A stretch of DNA of 37,937 bases, taken from assembly GCA_008081395.1 (NCBI GenBank), contig VMCJ01000176.1:1-37937 (forward strand), written 5' to 3'. How positions within the stretch are numbered: the first letter of the stretch is position 1; each line of letters opens with the position of its first letter. Below, piece by piece: positions 17,023-24,183 of the stretch. This DNA is from Rhodospirillales bacterium (lineage in GTDB: Bacteria > Pseudomonadota > Alphaproteobacteria > Bin95). Below the pieces are notes generated by a model. The model had not been told where the DNA came from. It saw nothing but the letters and a program-made list of their open reading frames with translations, and ran no database searches. The position numbers were made by a program, and so were the translations under genes.

Positions 17023-17691
17023 TTAAAAATCGAGATTTGCGTAATGCGGGGGCGGCTGAAAACCATTAACGCGGTCTGCCAAAAGTGATCTGAAACTTGG
17101 ACGTGACTTTATCCGCTGGTACCAAAGTTTTGCACCCTCAAATCTATCCCAGTCGATATCACCTAGGAAATCAAGGACCGAGATATGTGCACCAGCGGTT
17201 ATGTCAGCTAAAGAAAAGTGGTCTGCGGCTAGCCATGTGCGTCTATCACATAGCCAGGCAATATAATTAAGATGGTGTGCTACATTTGTCCGACCAGCCC
17301 TAAGTGCAACAGAGTCAGGTGACCCACCACCAGTTTGCCTACGTAAAACTTTTTCACCATAGATATGCTGCGTAACCTCGCGGTAGAATTTATCATCAAA
17401 CCACGCGATTAGTCGTCGGGTTTCTGCTCGAGCTTCTGGCGTTGTGCCTAGAAGGGATGGCGAAGGCACCATCTCTTCAAGAAATTCACAAATAGCCTGA
17501 GAGTCGGCGAGAACATGGTTGTTTTCCATCTCTAAGACGGGAACTTTTCCTGCTGGGTTAAGTGCTAAAAAATCACGTCTTCTATCCCATACTCGTTCCT
17601 CACGAAGCTCTATTGGCAGTGATTTTTCGCCCAGTGTTATCCGAACCTTACGGCAGAATGGAGAGAGTGGCAGGTGATGAAGCGTCGGCAT
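17023..17691 (-). CDS. Glutathione S-transferase family protein
   Basis: The 222-residue cytosolic protein has a thioredoxin-like N-terminal domain with SPFCRK (10-15), NPAGKVPVLE near 45-54 and the glutathione-binding DSQAI (63-67), then an all-alpha C-terminal domain containing FSLADITAGAHISVLDFLGD. The end, HYANLDF, and the preceding SRPSFRSLLADR resemble a subgroup common in alphaproteobacteria whose physiological substrate I do not know. Cys13 could be the catalytic residue. It lies 74 nt after the Tam41-like gene and 63 nt before dnaE on the same strand. No clear Shine-Dalgarno is visible. Confidence 0.88.
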   Translation of the reverse strand: MPTLHHLPLSPFCRKVRITLGEKSLPIELREERVWDRRRDFLALNPAGKVPVLEMENNHVLADSQAICEFLEEMVPSPSLLGTTPEARAETRRLIAWFDDKFYREVTQHIYGEKVLRRQTGGGSPDSVALRAGRTNVAHHLNYIAWLCDRRTWLAADHFSLADITAGAHISVLDFLGDIDWDRFEGAKLWYQRIKSRPSFRSLLADRVNGFQPPPHYANLDF

Positions 17692-17765: not shown

Positions 17766-18644
17766 TCACTTGAATCCACCTCGACGCCAAACAGACCATG
17801 CAAGCCCTGGTGCTGCAATGAGTGGCCAGCGTCGATGCCATGGCTTTATCGCTACTTTCACACCACTATGCCGATTAATTTTCCACGCTATGTAGTCCAG
17901 ACCACCCTCGAATGTGGACATTCCTTTGAGAAGTCTAACAACTGAAAGCAGCTTGCCAAAAATCTGCCTACGAATTTTTCGATAATGGGTTCCACGAAAT
18001 ATGGGGCGATTACTGTTTAGAATGTCAAATATTAGATCATATCGATTTTGATCAGCTAAGTAGATTTGAAGAGGTCTATCAGGTCCTTCAGAGCGAAGTT
18101 CGGAAGCGTATGTATGTTTGAAACCTTCTGTCCAGAAGACTTCACTTTTGGCCGGTGGATACAAATGTGTCTCGCTGGCAAAGGTTAAAACAGCGGATTT
18201 GCAGGCTTCGGCAATTTGGATGATGAGGTGTTCATTTTCGGCCCAGACAAGCCTTATTGGTTGTGCAAAACGTGCCCAGAAATAACTGTGAAAGGTTCTT
18301 TCGCTTGTCAGTTGAATAAATTGACCCACCGTAATAATTGCTGCCTTTGCTCTGAGTTTTCCATCTGGGCCATCACACTCCAGGTAGATGACACTCGGTG
18401 GAAGCACACGATTTAGAATCCGAATTAGCCAATTTTCTTTTTTGGATGCGTCATCCTCAATCAGTAGATAAAGATCAGCAATTGAATTGGTTGTTATTCC
18501 GTCCCTTAGACATGACCCATAGAATAAAGCGGCTTTAACGCCGATAACGCGATCTCGTGCGCTTTTAACCAGTGAGGTCGCGTTTATCTCAGCCGGACGA
18601 CTAAGTTCATCAATAATTAACTCGGTTAGATCTGCCACTTTCAT
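17766..18644 (-). CDS. Tam41-like nucleotidyltransferase, possible CDP-lipid (CDP-diacylglycerol) synthase
   Basis: The 292-residue protein has a nucleotidyltransferase signature, FYGSCLRDG (Gly43-Ser44) followed by the acidic ADLYLLIEDD (Asp58). Beyond that, it follows the order of mitochondrial Tam41, which makes CDP-diacylglycerol from phosphatidate and CTP. Resembling segments are the CDGPDGKLRAKAAIIT segment, ARFAQPIRLVW near 124-134, and ACKSAVLTFASE, which parallels the LKSAVTAA region. This resemblance is from memory, not an alignment. The C-terminus is basic with Trp-rich hydrophobic patches, suggesting membrane contact. Its ATG overlaps the stop of the lipid kinase gene (ATGA), so the kinase product is the obvious substrate candidate. 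It could instead transfer a nucleotide to another lipid phosphate. Confidence 0.68.
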   Translation of the reverse strand: MKVADLTELIIDELSRPAEINATSLVKSARDRVIGVKAALFYGSCLRDGITTNSIADLYLLIEDDASKKENWLIRILNRVLPPSVIYLECDGPDGKLRAKAAIITVGQFIQLTSERTFHSYFWARFAQPIRLVWAENEHLIIQIAEACKSAVLTFASETHLYPPAKSEVFWTEGFKHTYASELRSEGPDRPLQIYLADQNRYDLIFDILNSNRPIFRGTHYRKIRRQIFGKLLSVVRLLKGMSTFEGGLDYIAWKINRHSGVKVAIKPWHRRWPLIAAPGLAWSVWRRGGFK

Positions 18645-19612
18645 TCTACTAAAAATTGGACCTCTCCACCGGCTGATAGTCGGATGGGTTTGGATGCGTG
18701 GGCCTCATAAAGCTCCCCATCAAGAGTGACTTGTCCGGTGTATGTTATTTCATAACTTTCATCTTTGAGACTTTCGTAACCGGGGCTTTGGGGTCGTTTT
18801 GTGTTTCCAAAAAGTAAGGGCAAAATATTAGCAAAAAGTCTTGGTGGCGGTGCCTGGACTGCAGTCAATGGAAGGCCGGATCCATTGCCCCAGAATGGCT
18901 TGGCGCCAAGAGTAAGCTTTTCTAGAGTGGAAGCCATTAAAACCGAATAGCTTCCGTCTAATTTGTGATGTTGATCAAAATCGTTCATTCCGCGAATAAC
19001 CAAAGGAGCTCCGGCTAAAACACCATCTGAAGGATTAAAAACCAAGTTTCTCAGAAGCAAAGGCAATAAGGTTAGCCAAGATGCTGAGCTTCCGACAATT
19101 CCATGACGGTGCAAATTCACTCGGCAAAACTCTATGGCCCTACAAATTCCGATAGCCCCAAAAAACATCCCTACTTGAGGATCAGTGCCACCCATTTTAT
19201 CCATGACACCATCCAAACGAATGGTTTGCCGCTTGACCAATTTACCCTGGCCAGACTTCGCTAAGTTATAAGCGCGGTTGAGGTTATTTTTACCTGTTGC
19301 AATACCTATATCGGCTGCCGTCATATTTGTTGTGCCATCTGGAGTAAGACAGAGGATAGGTTGTCTCTCAAAAGCGTGTCCTGTCAGTATAGCAGTAAGT
19401 GCTGACAGAACTGTCCCATCTCCACCGCTAACTGCAAGGACGTCAAGCCCTGCATCTCCCAGCCTACTTATGGCTGCGGGGAGCTCTGCCAAAGAGGAGG
19501 GCGTCTCTACTAATATTCCTTTTGATCTTAGATAGGTAATGTCTGGAGGTTGTCTCGAATTCCGACGGCTTGCCAGATTTACTAAAGCTCCAAACTTTTT
19601 TGTAGCCTTCAT
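18641..19612 (-). CDS. Diacylglycerol/ceramide kinase-family lipid kinase
   Basis: The 323-residue protein has the DAGK catalytic domain: VNLASRRNSR near the start, the ATP-binding VSGGDGTVLSAL (GGDGT at 63-67), and TPDGTTNMTA near 90-99 where others read PGGTAND. The C-terminal half has the expected beta-sandwich, ending with TLDGELYEA (the DGE motif). It phosphorylates a lipid hydroxyl; candidates are diacylglycerol, undecaprenol-like lipids or ceramide (a Caulobacter ceramide kinase belongs to this superfamily). The ATG at 19612 overlaps the lptG stop as ATGA and has AAGGAG eight bases upstream, which beats an earlier in-frame start at 19633. Coupled upstream to lptG and downstream to the Tam41-like gene. 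Confidence 0.83.
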   Translation of the reverse strand: MKATKKFGALVNLASRRNSRQPPDITYLRSKGILVETPSSLAELPAAISRLGDAGLDVLAVSGGDGTVLSALTAILTGHAFERQPILCLTPDGTTNMTAADIGIATGKNNLNRAYNLAKSGQGKLVKRQTIRLDGVMDKMGGTDPQVGMFFGAIGICRAIEFCRVNLHRHGIVGSSASWLTLLPLLLRNLVFNPSDGVLAGAPLVIRGMNDFDQHHKLDGSYSVLMASTLEKLTLGAKPFWGNGSGLPLTAVQAPPPRLFANILPLLFGNTKRPQSPGYESLKDESYEITYTGQVTLDGELYEAHASKPIRLSAGGEVQFLVE

Positions 19613-20664
19613 CCTGGCTGCTCCTTGAAGCACACCATACTAAGCAAAATTAGAAGCAAGGCGACGGGGGGACCCCACGCACCACTGTAGGGCCCAATGG
19701 CGCCAGACTCAGCTGCTACCGTTGCAAGGTTTTCAAAGACGAAGAACCCAAATCCCGTTAGCAGGGCGAGGGCCAAAGGTGCAGCAACTGACCTGCCACG
19801 AGCCATTTGCCCTGCAAACGGAATGGCCAGCAATAACATTAACGCAGACGAAAATGGTGCCGAGTACCGTAGCTGTATCCAGTGGTCGTAATAGTACTTT
19901 GGTTTTGGACTAATACTGATGGCATCAGAGAGAGACTGCAATTCCTTAAGAGTTAGCTCGGAAGGGTGCGAGGCTAGGGAGGCAAATGAGCCAACAAGGA
20001 TTGCTGGAGACCATTTTACTATATCTACAATTTTTTTGCTCTGGTCGCTCAAATCTAGAATCTCGGCGTTTTGTAGCTGCCAGGTGTCTTCTTTTTTTAT
20101 TGCTGTATGTGCCTGAATTTCAAAGGTTAGTTGTCCTGCGCCGGTGCGTTTGAAAATTGTTATATTCTCAATTTTTGTTTCATTATCCGACACTTTTTCG
20201 ATACGGACGATATCAAGGCCATCTCGTAGCCAGATGGCATCGGTTGGTTGGGCTATTCTTGCAAAAGGTTCTAAGCCCATTGCACGAAGAGTTTGTGCAG
20301 CCGGGGGAACAGCAAATTCACTTACAACAAATATCAATCCAGCTATAGCGAAGGCTATTGGTGACAGAGCCCTAATAGTCCGAACTTGGCTGGCTCCCAA
20401 TGCACCAGCTGCCGCTAGTTCACCAGACCTTGAAAGACCCAATAAAGAAATCAATGCCGCTAAAAGCCCTGTTATTGGGGCTAGTTTTAGGGTCAGAATT
20501 GGGAGCCGTGCAGAAACGTAAGTCAGCACACCACCTGCTTGAGCAGCTTTGTCAGCGTTTGAGAGTATATCCAGGGATATCGCTAGACCTGCAATACTCA
20601 CAAACACAATAATAAAGCTAACTGTAACCCTTGATAGGATATAACGGTCAAGATGCCCAATCAT
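19609..20664 (-). CDS. lptG: LptG-family (YjgQ) permease of the LPS export ABC transporter
   Basis: Inner-membrane half of the LptB2FG transporter, which extracts LPS or a related lipid toward the outer membrane. The 351-residue protein has the layout of the YjgP/YjgQ family: three N-terminal helices beginning LDRYILSRV, a periplasmic jellyroll (about 130-240), and three C-terminal helices. The coupling-helix region contains GELAAAGALGASQVR. It overlaps lptF by ATGA and is itself overlapped by the lipid kinase gene. In many alphaproteobacteria lptFG precedes lptD; here lipid-modifying genes follow instead, so a specialised paralogue is possible. Confidence 0.85.
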   Translation of the reverse strand: MIGHLDRYILSRVTVSFIIVFVSIAGLAISLDILSNADKAAQAGGVLTYVSARLPILTLKLAPITGLLAALISLLGLSRSGELAAAGALGASQVRTIRALSPIAFAIAGLIFVVSEFAVPPAAQTLRAMGLEPFARIAQPTDAIWLRDGLDIVRIEKVSDNETKIENITIFKRTGAGQLTFEIQAHTAIKKEDTWQLQNAEILDLSDQSKKIVDIVKWSPAILVGSFASLASHPSELTLKELQSLSDAISISPKPKYYYDHWIQLRYSAPFSSALMLLLAIPFAGQMARGRSVAAPLALALLTGFGFFVFENLATVAAESGAIGPYSGAWGPPVALLLILLSMVCFKEQPG

Positions 20665-21824
20665 GTTGGCCTCTCAACTTGAGATTTTCTGGCTAAAAGC
20701 TTGAAAGCGGGCAAATAGGGTATGATTTCGAAGCCTACACCACGCCAGGCCCGAATGAAGATAAAAAGGGAAAAACAAAGTAGAGCGCTGTAAAGTGACC
20801 AAATCGACAAAGCTGGAGGGATGGTACCTAAATCCGCCGTCTCCTCAATAAACTTTAAGCTTTGGACATAAACAAGCAAAGTGATGACACCAATTGCTAT
20901 GGATGAAACAGAGCGTTTGCGTCTTCCCGCTATCGCAAGCGGTATCGCAAGTATTGGAATTAAAAGACATGTGAATGCTCTTGCCATACGAGCATTTAAT
21001 TCTGATTCAATGCGATCTGCAGTGAGGTGCGAAGAAGCAGTTTCCATTGCAGCTAATAATTCTGGCCATGTTAACTCTGACTCAATCCAACCTCGAGGTT
21101 TGTATGATCCAAGAAATTTCCTGTCGATTGGCCAATCGAGGTTTCTAAACGAAATTAGAGCAAGCTGACCATCAGGGCTTTCGTCTAATAATTGCCCTTC
21201 TTCAAGACCTATAGCGATATCCCCGTTGGCCTGATTTTCAATTACTGTAGCTTTTTGGGATGTAATGGTTCGATTGGAGCCATTTGTCCCCCGCTGATGA
21301 ACAAAAACCTTTCCAAATCCAAGATCACCCGGCCGCCCGCTTTCAACGATAAAGGTGATGTCGCCAAATTCAGCAAAATTACCTGATTGAAGAGCCTCTG
21401 TAATAGACGAATTAGCAAGATGGAATTTAAGGGTCCGATACTCAAAACGCCCATGAGGCTGAAGATTGCTATGTACCAGGCTTGAAATTAGGGTGAGAAG
21501 GGCTGCAAAAAAGAACGCTGGACGCGCCAGACGGCCCAGTCCTCTTCCTATACTTGCTGTGGCGTCTAGTTCACTTGTATTTGCGAGACGTCGGAAAGCG
21601 ACAAAGCAGGCCACGAAAAGTGCCGCAGGAATAGCAAGGCCAAGATAGTGTGGGATTAAGCTGCTCATGATGTCGAAGACATAGCTAACAGAGCCATTAT
21701 GCTCGCCAACGAGTTCGACAACTCTAATCATTCTCTCCAGCATAAGGAGCAGCATTGCTCCAGCTAACGCAGCTAAGAATGGAGGTATCAGTAGAGCTAA
21801 AATGTAACGATCAATCCGGTCCAT
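20661..21824 (-). CDS. lptF: LptF-family (YjgP) permease of the LPS export ABC transporter
   Basis: Partner of the LptG-like protein in a lipid-extracting ABC transporter. The 387-residue protein starts MDRIDRYILALLIPPF, has helices at roughly residues 10-30, 50-75 and 95-115, a periplasmic jellyroll and three C-terminal helices ending near 360, matching the YjgP/YjgQ fold. The cytoplasmic loop RRLANTSELDATASIGRG carries the coupling-helix glutamate. It heads a four-gene chain joined by 4-nt overlaps (lptF, lptG, lipid kinase, Tam41-like gene). Its promoter should be in the 443-bp gap upstream, which holds a long palindrome. Confidence 0.85.
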   Translation of the reverse strand: MDRIDRYILALLIPPFLAALAGAMLLLMLERMIRVVELVGEHNGSVSYVFDIMSSLIPHYLGLAIPAALFVACFVAFRRLANTSELDATASIGRGLGRLARPAFFFAALLTLISSLVHSNLQPHGRFEYRTLKFHLANSSITEALQSGNFAEFGDITFIVESGRPGDLGFGKVFVHQRGTNGSNRTITSQKATVIENQANGDIAIGLEEGQLLDESPDGQLALISFRNLDWPIDRKFLGSYKPRGWIESELTWPELLAAMETASSHLTADRIESELNARMARAFTCLLIPILAIPLAIAGRRKRSVSSIAIGVITLLVYVQSLKFIEETADLGTIPPALSIWSLYSALLCFSLFIFIRAWRGVGFEIIPYLPAFKLLARKSQVERPT

Positions 21825-22267
21825 TATCTCAACAGTCGTTGTATCATTCCGCTGGGATGCATCCCTTTAAAACTCGCTTGATTTTCTTTGGCCCTGTCAC
21901 TCACCTTCGGGCAGTTAACTGTGGTAATCATTTTTCTCTCAGTCATGTCAAAATTTTTTGACATTGAAAAATCATTTTGGCCGCTGCTCATCTGTCAGAG
22001 TAGGTAGCGCGTTTTCACTCACTTATCAGCACAAGTCTACCTAATAATTGAAGACTTTCATATTTTCAGAATTGTTTATCTTATCGAGTGGTTGAATTTT
22101 CTGGCATCATGCGTGATGGATTAAATAATTGAGAATGCCCTAACTGCCATACCATATGTTTTTAAATGCCAATACGGTCCTTGCACTGTTTGCGTCCGTG
22201 TTCTTCATTTACCCTGCAATGACCTTGGTTTAATACATCGATTTTTAAACTCTCTTGGGAGCTACGT
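21825..22267. other. 443-bp divergent intergenic region of the lipid locus
   Basis: This gap separates the starts of lptF (minus) and the BcerS-like gene (plus). It is AT-rich and must contain both promoters. The most distinct feature is a 20-bp palindrome listed separately. A TTGCAC at 22181 could be a minus-35 for the rightward gene, but I see no good minus-10 at the right spacing. I see no convincing small ORF, tRNA or intrinsic terminator in it. Confidence 0.5.
21945..21964. promoter_or_regulatory. 20-bp palindrome, candidate operator upstream of lptF
   Basis: Arms ATGTCAAAA and TTTTGACAT are perfectly complementary with two bases between them. Each arm carries a TTGACA hexamer on one strand, so a protein bound here would cover potential minus-35 elements in both directions. 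It lies about 120 bp before lptF and about 300 bp before the rightward gene. The regulator is unknown. Confidence 0.45.
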
Positions 22268-23410
22268 GTGCAGGATGTCCGCATCCTCCCAGTTATAGGA
22301 AAACGGGAAAGGCGCGCTTTTCTCGACGTCCCAAAATTCGTTATGTCTAGTGACCCTAATTTTGTCGCACCGTTAGAAATGGAGGTGGCTCAGCGCTTGG
22401 ATGCCAGCAGTCATCCATTTTATGACAACGGGGAGGCAGCGTTCTGGGTTGCGTTTGATTGTGCTGGAAATCCGGTGGGCCGTATTTCGGCGCAGGTCAA
22501 CAATGTTCACCAAAAAAGGTATAGCAACAGAGAAGGTCACTTTGGCTTTATTATTGGCGCTAACAACGCAGAGTTATACAGAAGACTTTTAGCGCAGGCG
22601 GAAGATTGGCTGGTAAGTAAAGGGGTGGTTTCATCGATTGGACCGTTCACCCTTTCGATTAATGAAGAGTCGGGTCTTCTTGTGGATGGTTTTAACACGC
22701 CACCTATGATTATGATGGGTCACGATCCGGCGTGGTCCCAAGAGCATATATTGGCGGCTGGTTATCAACCGGAGAAAGATCTGCTTTCATACATCTATGA
22801 TCCTTCTGGAGGATCATCGAGCCGCCTCTCCTCTTTTGCTGAGAAGTTTCTTTCTATTGATGGAGCTATTTTACGCCCATTTGATAAGCGCAAATTTAAG
22901 CAAGATCTCGCTGCTATTTTAGACATATTCAATGATGCGTGGTCCGACAATTGGGGATATGTCCCAATGTCAAAAGGGGAGATTAATGCGCTTGCCCACG
23001 GTTTGAGGGCTATCGCTGATTATGAATTGATATTGATTGCTGAAATTGCAGGCCGTCCCGTGGGAATGGCCGTGAGTTTGCCTAACGTTAATGAAGCACT
23101 TGCAGGACTAAATGGTGCAAAAAAGCTAGGTATTTTGCGCTTTTTATGGCGTCTTAAAGTTGTTGGTGTGAAGTCCTCCAGAGTATTGTTGATGGGAGTA
23201 AATAAAGCATGCCAAGCTGACATCGCACTTGGCCCAGTGATCAGTATGGCATTGGTTAATGCGTTGATTGAAGCGCATCGCCGCAAGGGTTACCAGCGTA
23301 TGGAATTGTCATGGATTTTGGATACGAATGAGCCGATGCGACGCATTGCCGAGTTTGGTGGAGCAGAGCTCTATAAAACATATAGAATTTTCCGAAAGGA
23401 TCTAACGTGA
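22268..23410 (+). CDS. BcerS-like/YghO-family GNAT-fold acyltransferase (candidate ceramide synthase)
   Basis: The 380-residue protein belongs to the family often labelled GNAT N-acetyltransferase or, wrongly, dATP pyrophosphohydrolase, and related to E. coli YghO. Landmarks I recognise are SSDPNFVAPL near 27-36, ASSHPFYDNGEAAFWVA, GPFTLSINEESGLLVDGF at 125-142 and MIMMGHDPAW at 147-156. Others are IFNDAWSDNWGYVP near 219-232, the LLMGV segment, and a final RIAEFGGAELYKTYRIF. The Caulobacter bacterial ceramide synthase is, to my knowledge, in this family, so the likely reaction is N-acylation of a long-chain base. That assignment is inference. The start is GTG with GGAG six bases upstream. 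Its stop overlaps the next gene as GTGA. Confidence 0.75.
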   Translation: MQDVRILPVIGKRERRAFLDVPKFVMSSDPNFVAPLEMEVAQRLDASSHPFYDNGEAAFWVAFDCAGNPVGRISAQVNNVHQKRYSNREGHFGFIIGANNAELYRRLLAQAEDWLVSKGVVSSIGPFTLSINEESGLLVDGFNTPPMIMMGHDPAWSQEHILAAGYQPEKDLLSYIYDPSGGSSSRLSSFAEKFLSIDGAILRPFDKRKFKQDLAAILDIFNDAWSDNWGYVPMSKGEINALAHGLRAIADYELILIAEIAGRPVGMAVSLPNVNEALAGLNGAKKLGILRFLWRLKVVGVKSSRVLLMGVNKACQADIALGPVISMALVNALIEAHRRKGYQRMELSWILDTNEPMRRIAEFGGAELYKTYRIFRKDLT

Positions 23411-24183
23411 GGCAAAAGTGGACGGCCTTAGTGCTAGCTGCAAGCCGCCCAGGCGATCCATTAGCCATTGCAGAGAAGGTTAGTAACAAGAACCTAGTCG
23501 ACATCAATGGTCTGTCTTCCCTTCAAAGAGTGATCGATGCCCTTAATGAAGCTCCAGCTATTGGCCAAGTCTTAGTTTCTGTTGAAAATCTAGATCTTGT
23601 TGACGAAATCAAGCCAAAACCAGAAGTGCTTAAAGCCTCTGTGCGAGTAGTCGATACAGTTCGCGAAACACTAGAGAAAGTGGGGGCACCTCTTCTTGTT
23701 GTCACTGGGGACCATGCTCTTCTGACTGCAGAGATGGTGGAAACATTTCTCGAAAAATCTACGGAAACTTGCGCTGAGGTCTCTGTGGCCCTTGCTTCCA
23801 AAGATGTGGTGAGTTCGGCGTATCCTGATGTTAAACGAACGTACATCAAATTTGCGGAGGGAGGGTATTCAGGCTGTAATCTCTTTGCTCTTGCAACTCC
23901 CAACGCAACTGGTGCTCTGGATTTTTGGCATAAGATTGATCGTAATCGGAAAAGGCCGTGGGTATTTCTAAAGTCTGTGGACGTCTGGGCCTTTGCACTT
24001 TATGCCTTCAGGCGTCTTACTCTTGATAAGGCCATGGAGCGGCTATCAAAAAAGATCGGTGTTAAAGCTGTAGCAATTAGGATGCCAATGGCCGAAGCCG
24101 CGATTGATGTAGACAAAGTATCTGACTTGTACCTCGTTCGAAAGATCGTTGAACAAAGGCACTCGTCCGTTAAGGGCGCATAA
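23407..24183 (+). CDS. MobA-like NTP transferase domain protein
   Basis: The 258-residue protein has a GT-A type nucleotidyltransferase fold. The N-terminal ALVLAASRPGDPLAIAEKV (7-25) is a variant of the sugar-nucleotide pyrophosphorylase loop LAAGxGxR. KNLVDINGLSSLQRVIDAL follows, and VVTGDHALLT near 98-107 supplies the metal-binding Asp. The classical GxGxRM loop is altered, so it is not an ordinary MobA, and its substrate is unknown. It probably transfers a nucleotide to a phosphorylated alcohol, for example to make a CDP-headgroup. It is translationally coupled to the BcerS-like gene (GTGA overlap, AAGGA six bases upstream), which points to a shared lipid pathway. It ends 14 bases inside the convergent small gene. 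Confidence 0.72.
   Translation: MRQKWTALVLAASRPGDPLAIAEKVSNKNLVDINGLSSLQRVIDALNEAPAIGQVLVSVENLDLVDEIKPKPEVLKASVRVVDTVRETLEKVGAPLLVVTGDHALLTAEMVETFLEKSTETCAEVSVALASKDVVSSAYPDVKRTYIKFAEGGYSGCNLFALATPNATGALDFWHKIDRNRKRPWVFLKSVDVWAFALYAFRRLTLDKAMERLSKKIGVKAVAIRMPMAEAAIDVDKVSDLYLVRKIVEQRHSSVKGA

Follow-up and report, generated by a model that had tools for sequence, protein, structure and literature searches.

The six-gene locus at 17766-24183 of the window (the whole 37,937-nucleotide stretch of DNA that was analyzed) probably directs the synthesis and export of a CPG-type phosphosphingolipid in a lineage that appears to have lost lipopolysaccharide (LPS), with the lipid replacing LPS by way of a dedicated LptF/LptG pair that feeds the old Lpt bridge. 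Gene content, homology, the absence of lpxC and lpxB and the presence of a single LptF/LptG pair of the sphingolipid-associated type were established by sequence comparison. The locus belongs to the published Caulobacter CPG-type gene set, and its natural, LPS-free background is the new and interesting part.

Organization of the locus

Six intact open reading frames were confirmed when the open reading frames, strands and overlaps of the window were re-checked:

17766..18644, minus strand: Tam41-fold nucleotidyltransferase (CpgC/CC_1161 homologue), predicted to activate ceramide-1-phosphate (Tam41_Mmp37 matches in its family; predicted fold)
18641..19612, minus strand: DAGK-family lipid kinase, predicted ceramide kinase (CpgB/CC_1160 homologue; DAGK_cat E 6.4e-8; GGDGT motif)
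19609..20664, minus strand: lptG, sphingolipid-associated type (LptG2-like), 351 aa (Pfam LptF_LptG E 6.4e-49; best NCBIfam match LptG; sphingolipid side of the LptG tree)
20661..21824, minus strand: lptF, sphingolipid-associated type (LptF2-like), 387 aa (Pfam LptF_LptG E 6.8e-61; sphingolipid side of the LptF tree)
21825..22267, no strand: divergent intergenic region between lptF and cerS, 443 bp
22268..23410, plus strand: cerS, bacterial ceramide synthase (CerS/bCerS, CC_1154 homologue; weak GNAT Pfam match; 40% identity over 379 aa to the Caulobacter copy)
23407..24183, plus strand: MobA/CofC-like nucleotidyltransferase (CC_1153 homologue; NTP_transf_3 E 1.9e-6)

The three junctions of the minus-strand arm carry ATGA on the coding strand (20661-20664, 19609-19612 and 18641-18644), and cerS and the NTP transferase gene share a GTGA overlap at 23407-23410. 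Genes, coordinates, strands and all four overlaps were as originally predicted, and the domain calls agree. Judged by the closest named matches, the window probably derives from the Alphaproteobacteria. The kinase has an ATG start at 19612; the list of open reading frames prolongs its frame to a GTG at 19633. Downstream of the Tam41-like gene, both the window (17023-17691) and congener G001 (L025:16378-17046) have a glutathione S-transferase-like gene.

The same genes recur around cerS in many other genomes, which indicates that the six-gene grouping is not due to chance; lptFG lies no more than about 8 kb from cerS in 40 of the 80 named loci. That the locus consists of two unrelated functional units, divergent by chance, is extremely unlikely. 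The arms do point away from each other across 443 bp and gene order differs among groups of cerS loci, but congeners G001 and G003 have the two arms side by side (contig ends limit the view in G002 and G004), and the same divergent six-gene order (tam-kinase-lptG-lptF opposite cerS-NTP transferase) was found in a Hyphomonadaceae locus (L081) and a Robiginitomaculum locus (L100); the six proteins there are 24-37% identical to those of the window. Moreover, mutants of the Caulobacter counterparts have lipid phenotypes in common (Olea-Ozuna et al., 2024, PMC11324152).

Identity of the lipid enzymes

The Tam41-like protein taken alone had no Pfam match and no NCBIfam name. In a family-level Pfam scan, six of its 16 family members matched Tam41_Mmp37 (best E 9e-10). 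Its AlphaFold model (pLDDT 85, pTM 0.82) had Tam41 structures 6ig4, 6ig2 and 7ecd as best PDB matches (E about 5e-6, TM about 0.45-0.54). The original assignment of a Tam41 fold to this protein holds at the level of the family and by predicted structure. By the criteria of PMC10331486, in which the Caulobacter ceramide kinase (CC_1160) was assayed, the window's kinase falls in the bacterial ceramide kinase (CpgB) class: the GGDG ATP motif is present and the eukaryotic CxxxCxxC motif is absent.

The genes for making the ceramide precursor were detected elsewhere in the genome. A serine palmitoyltransferase (Spt; G000:C7, L022:6980-8161) scored 587 bits against an NCBIfam equivalog cut-off of 500, and on the same contig, separate from that of the window, spt is adjoined by genes for an acyl carrier protein, a CerR-like reductase and a fatty acyl-AMP ligase (acpR, cerR and aasR homologues). 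The CerR assignment is by family resemblance and position. The cerR frame, with its GATGFLGG nucleotide-binding motif, runs upstream of the first ATG, GTG or TTG (L022:9316-9423), which suggests that translation starts at an unusual codon, CTG for example.

The search for serine palmitoyltransferase and a ceramide reductase, and the comparison of the two arms across relatives, had been proposed as checks with the original prediction, and both came out in its favor. The six genes thus probably make, phosphorylate, nucleotide-activate and export one anionic sphingolipid, as had been predicted: Spt and the acpR, cerR and aasR homologues are present and the arms are conserved in the genus.

In four congeners, the gene immediately upstream of cerS encodes a fatty-acid hydroxylase (loci L017-L020 and L023-L026; PF04116 E 2.7e-19), which may hydroxylate the sphingolipid. 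Neither this gene nor a remnant of it was found in the corresponding gap of the window (21825-22267). A hydroxylase gene also lies upstream of cerS in other loci, for example L029, L058 and L104.

Correspondence to the Caulobacter cluster

Phosphosphingolipid synthesis has been described in Caulobacter crescentus, where the cluster CC_1168-CC_1152 accounts for CPG and CPG2 and the biosynthetic genes were studied by lipid analysis of mutants (Olea-Ozuna et al., 2024, PMC11324152). The head-group genes of that cluster are CC_1161 (CDP-DAG-synthase domain), CC_1160 (ceramide kinase), CC_1159, CC_1158, CC_1153 and CC_1152 (PMC11324152); CC_1152 is equated here with CpgD/CCNA_01210 of PMC12275187. 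LptC, LptF and LptG each have a second copy in the cluster, for which a role in transporting the lipid was proposed (PMC11324152). The window has homologues of lptF2, lptG2, CpgB, CpgC (CC_1161), cerS and CC_1153, and those of spt, acpR, cerR and aasR are elsewhere in its genome. The combination is therefore not new: the original prediction had called it not known as a described system, but all six functions are found in the published cluster.

Identity to the Caulobacter locus (L045) was 40% for cerS, 40% for the NTP transferase, 34% for the Tam41-like protein, 26% for the kinase, 27% for LptF and 26% for LptG; with kinase, LptF and LptG at only about 26%, conservation of their substrates is assumed. 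The two systems differ in arrangement, since the window's arms are divergent and its ceramide genes are on a separate contig. They also differ in background: Caulobacter has retained LPS and possesses two LptFG pairs, whereas the genome of the window has one and lacks lpxC and lpxB.

A further difference concerns the head group. No homologue of CpgA (CC_1159), the CDP-alcohol phosphotransferase required for the double-headed CPG2, was found in the window's genome, in which a PF01066 search returned only PgsA. With PgsA as the sole CDP-alcohol phosphotransferase found, the likelier product is CPG or a lipid with some other head group rather than CPG2, and CPG without CPG2 is a possible end product. 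The PgsA gene is at G000:C90 (L205:1858-2403). The genome had no PssA-type match, so the usual route of phosphatidylethanolamine synthesis may be missing.

LPS genes and the Lpt bridge

A search of the window's genome, a 96% complete metagenome-assembled genome (MAG), did not find LpxC or LpxB, the lipid A synthesis genes that canonical LPS cargo would call for. LptD is present, and LptC-LptA-LptB adjoin rpoN. Only two LptF/G domains were detected, which corresponds to one LptF/LptG pair, that of the window. Neither the absence of LPS-synthesis genes nor the uniqueness of the pair had been noticed in the original prediction.

The pattern is shared by the genus. CerS was present in five of five genomes of the genus and in none of nine from sister genera, whereas LpxC was found in 0/5 and 9/9, and LpxB in 0/5 and 8/9, respectively. 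Two of the five genomes are about 99% complete. A chance gap in a single incomplete MAG was rejected as the explanation, since the LPS genes are absent from all five genomes. The genus appears to have lost LPS altogether.

Sphingomonas is likewise naturally without lipid A and has glycosphingolipids (PMC10964400), its known surface lipids, in place of the phosphosphingolipid proposed here, and sphingolipid genes have been reported as scattered in the Sphingomonadales (PMC11324152). The cerS-bearing sphingomonad genomes sampled here resemble that of the window in lacking LpxC and in having sphingolipid genes and a single LptFG pair. These likenesses would fit a surface lipid consisting largely of a glycosphingolipid, either neutral or bearing uronic acid, with the kinase and the Tam41-like enzyme making a minor phospholipid. 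We regard this as unlikely: the window locus has no glycosyltransferase, its kinase gene overlaps both lptG and the Tam41-like gene, and in those congeners with contigs that reach far enough, the kinase and Tam41-like genes adjoin lptFG.

LptF/LptG type and LPS loss across genomes

In the LptF and LptG trees, cerS-associated sequences split from those of the alphaproteobacterial LPS type (support 0.999 and 1.0) when the split is read at the second branch, which was chosen after seeing the tree, the first cut being the long branch of the genus itself. The genus of the window falls on the sphingolipid side of both splits and its LPS-bearing sister genera on the other.

Descriptively, 19 of the 24 LpxC-lacking genomes in the trees had LptFG of the sphingolipid side only, the exceptions with only LPS-type LptFG being two Roseovarius, one Kiloniellaceae MAG and two others. 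Dongia mobilis and Aestuariivirga litoralis are species that combine a lack of LpxC with sphingolipid-type LptFG. LPS-type LptFG was present in 32 of the 37 genomes with LpxC; the five without it were Rhodanobacter, Carnimonas, Luteibacter and Desulfobulbus, all outside the Alphaproteobacteria, and the Robiginitomaculum MAG G083. Gammaproteobacterial LptFG fall on the sphingolipid side because the comparison clade is the alphaproteobacterial LPS type, and they were not counted as exceptions for that reason. Among 30 named cerS-bearing genomes, three or fewer LptF/G domains were found in 15 of 16 without LpxC and at least four in 11 of 14 with LpxC (Fisher p 9e-5), figures that are descriptive because genomes were sampled by cerS similarity and kinship and the statistics ignore phylogeny. 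The literature searched contained no report of a general relation of LPS loss to sphingolipid-type LptFG.

In the two Roseovarius genomes (G076, L070/L226; G079, L087/L228), cerS, kinase and Tam41-like genes are present, LpxC is absent and there is a sole LptFG pair, which belongs to the LPS type. G083 (L100, L230) retains LpxC, unlike the genome of the window, and its sole pair is of the sphingolipid type; possibly this pair handles LPS as well, unless the genome is incomplete.

These comparisons bear on whether LptFG instead exports another cargo or is the ordinary LPS exporter, its adjacency to lipid genes being incidental and the LPS genes having been missed. The window's genome is a fragmented MAG, and some LpxC-lacking genomes do have LPS-type LptFG. 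Even so, this explanation is very unlikely, given the joint absence of LpxC and LpxB throughout the genus, near-complete genomes included, the grouping of the window's pair with cerS-linked LptFG rather than with that of the sister genera, and the closeness of lptFG to cerS in half of the named loci.

Proposed pathway and implications

The substrates of the enzymes, the head group, the end product and the Lpt cargo are predicted here from homology and gene context. In the pathway that we propose, the Spt, AcpR, AasR and CerR homologues would form the sphingoid base, which cerS would acylate to ceramide, and the DAGK-family kinase would convert ceramide to ceramide-1-phosphate. The Tam41-fold enzyme, possibly together with the MobA-like transferase, would then use a nucleotide to activate either the lipid or its head group, allowing an anionic head group to be attached. 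Sphingolipid-type LptF/LptG, powered by the genome's LptB, would extract the finished lipid from the inner membrane, and the retained LptC-LptA-LptD bridge would carry it to the outer leaflet in place of LPS.

More broadly, and with about even confidence, we propose that several proteobacterial lineages including this genus naturally swapped LPS for a phosphosphingolipid, kept the Lpt bridge and lost LPS-type LptFG, leaving the sphingolipid-type pair as the sole extractor. On this view, the Lpt bridge could exchange one cargo for another, with LptF/LptG largely determining its specificity.

According to a 2024 study, it was not known how sphingolipids get to the outer membrane of bacteria (PMC11324152). 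Here, a genus in which no LPS genes were found has the whole Lpt bridge together with LptFG of the sphingolipid-linked type alone, a natural experiment that points to sphingolipid as an Lpt cargo. Its LPS-bearing sister genera provide a matched comparison for the loss of LPS in a Gram-negative lineage, and its natural background without LPS genes makes the question of sphingolipid transport testable.
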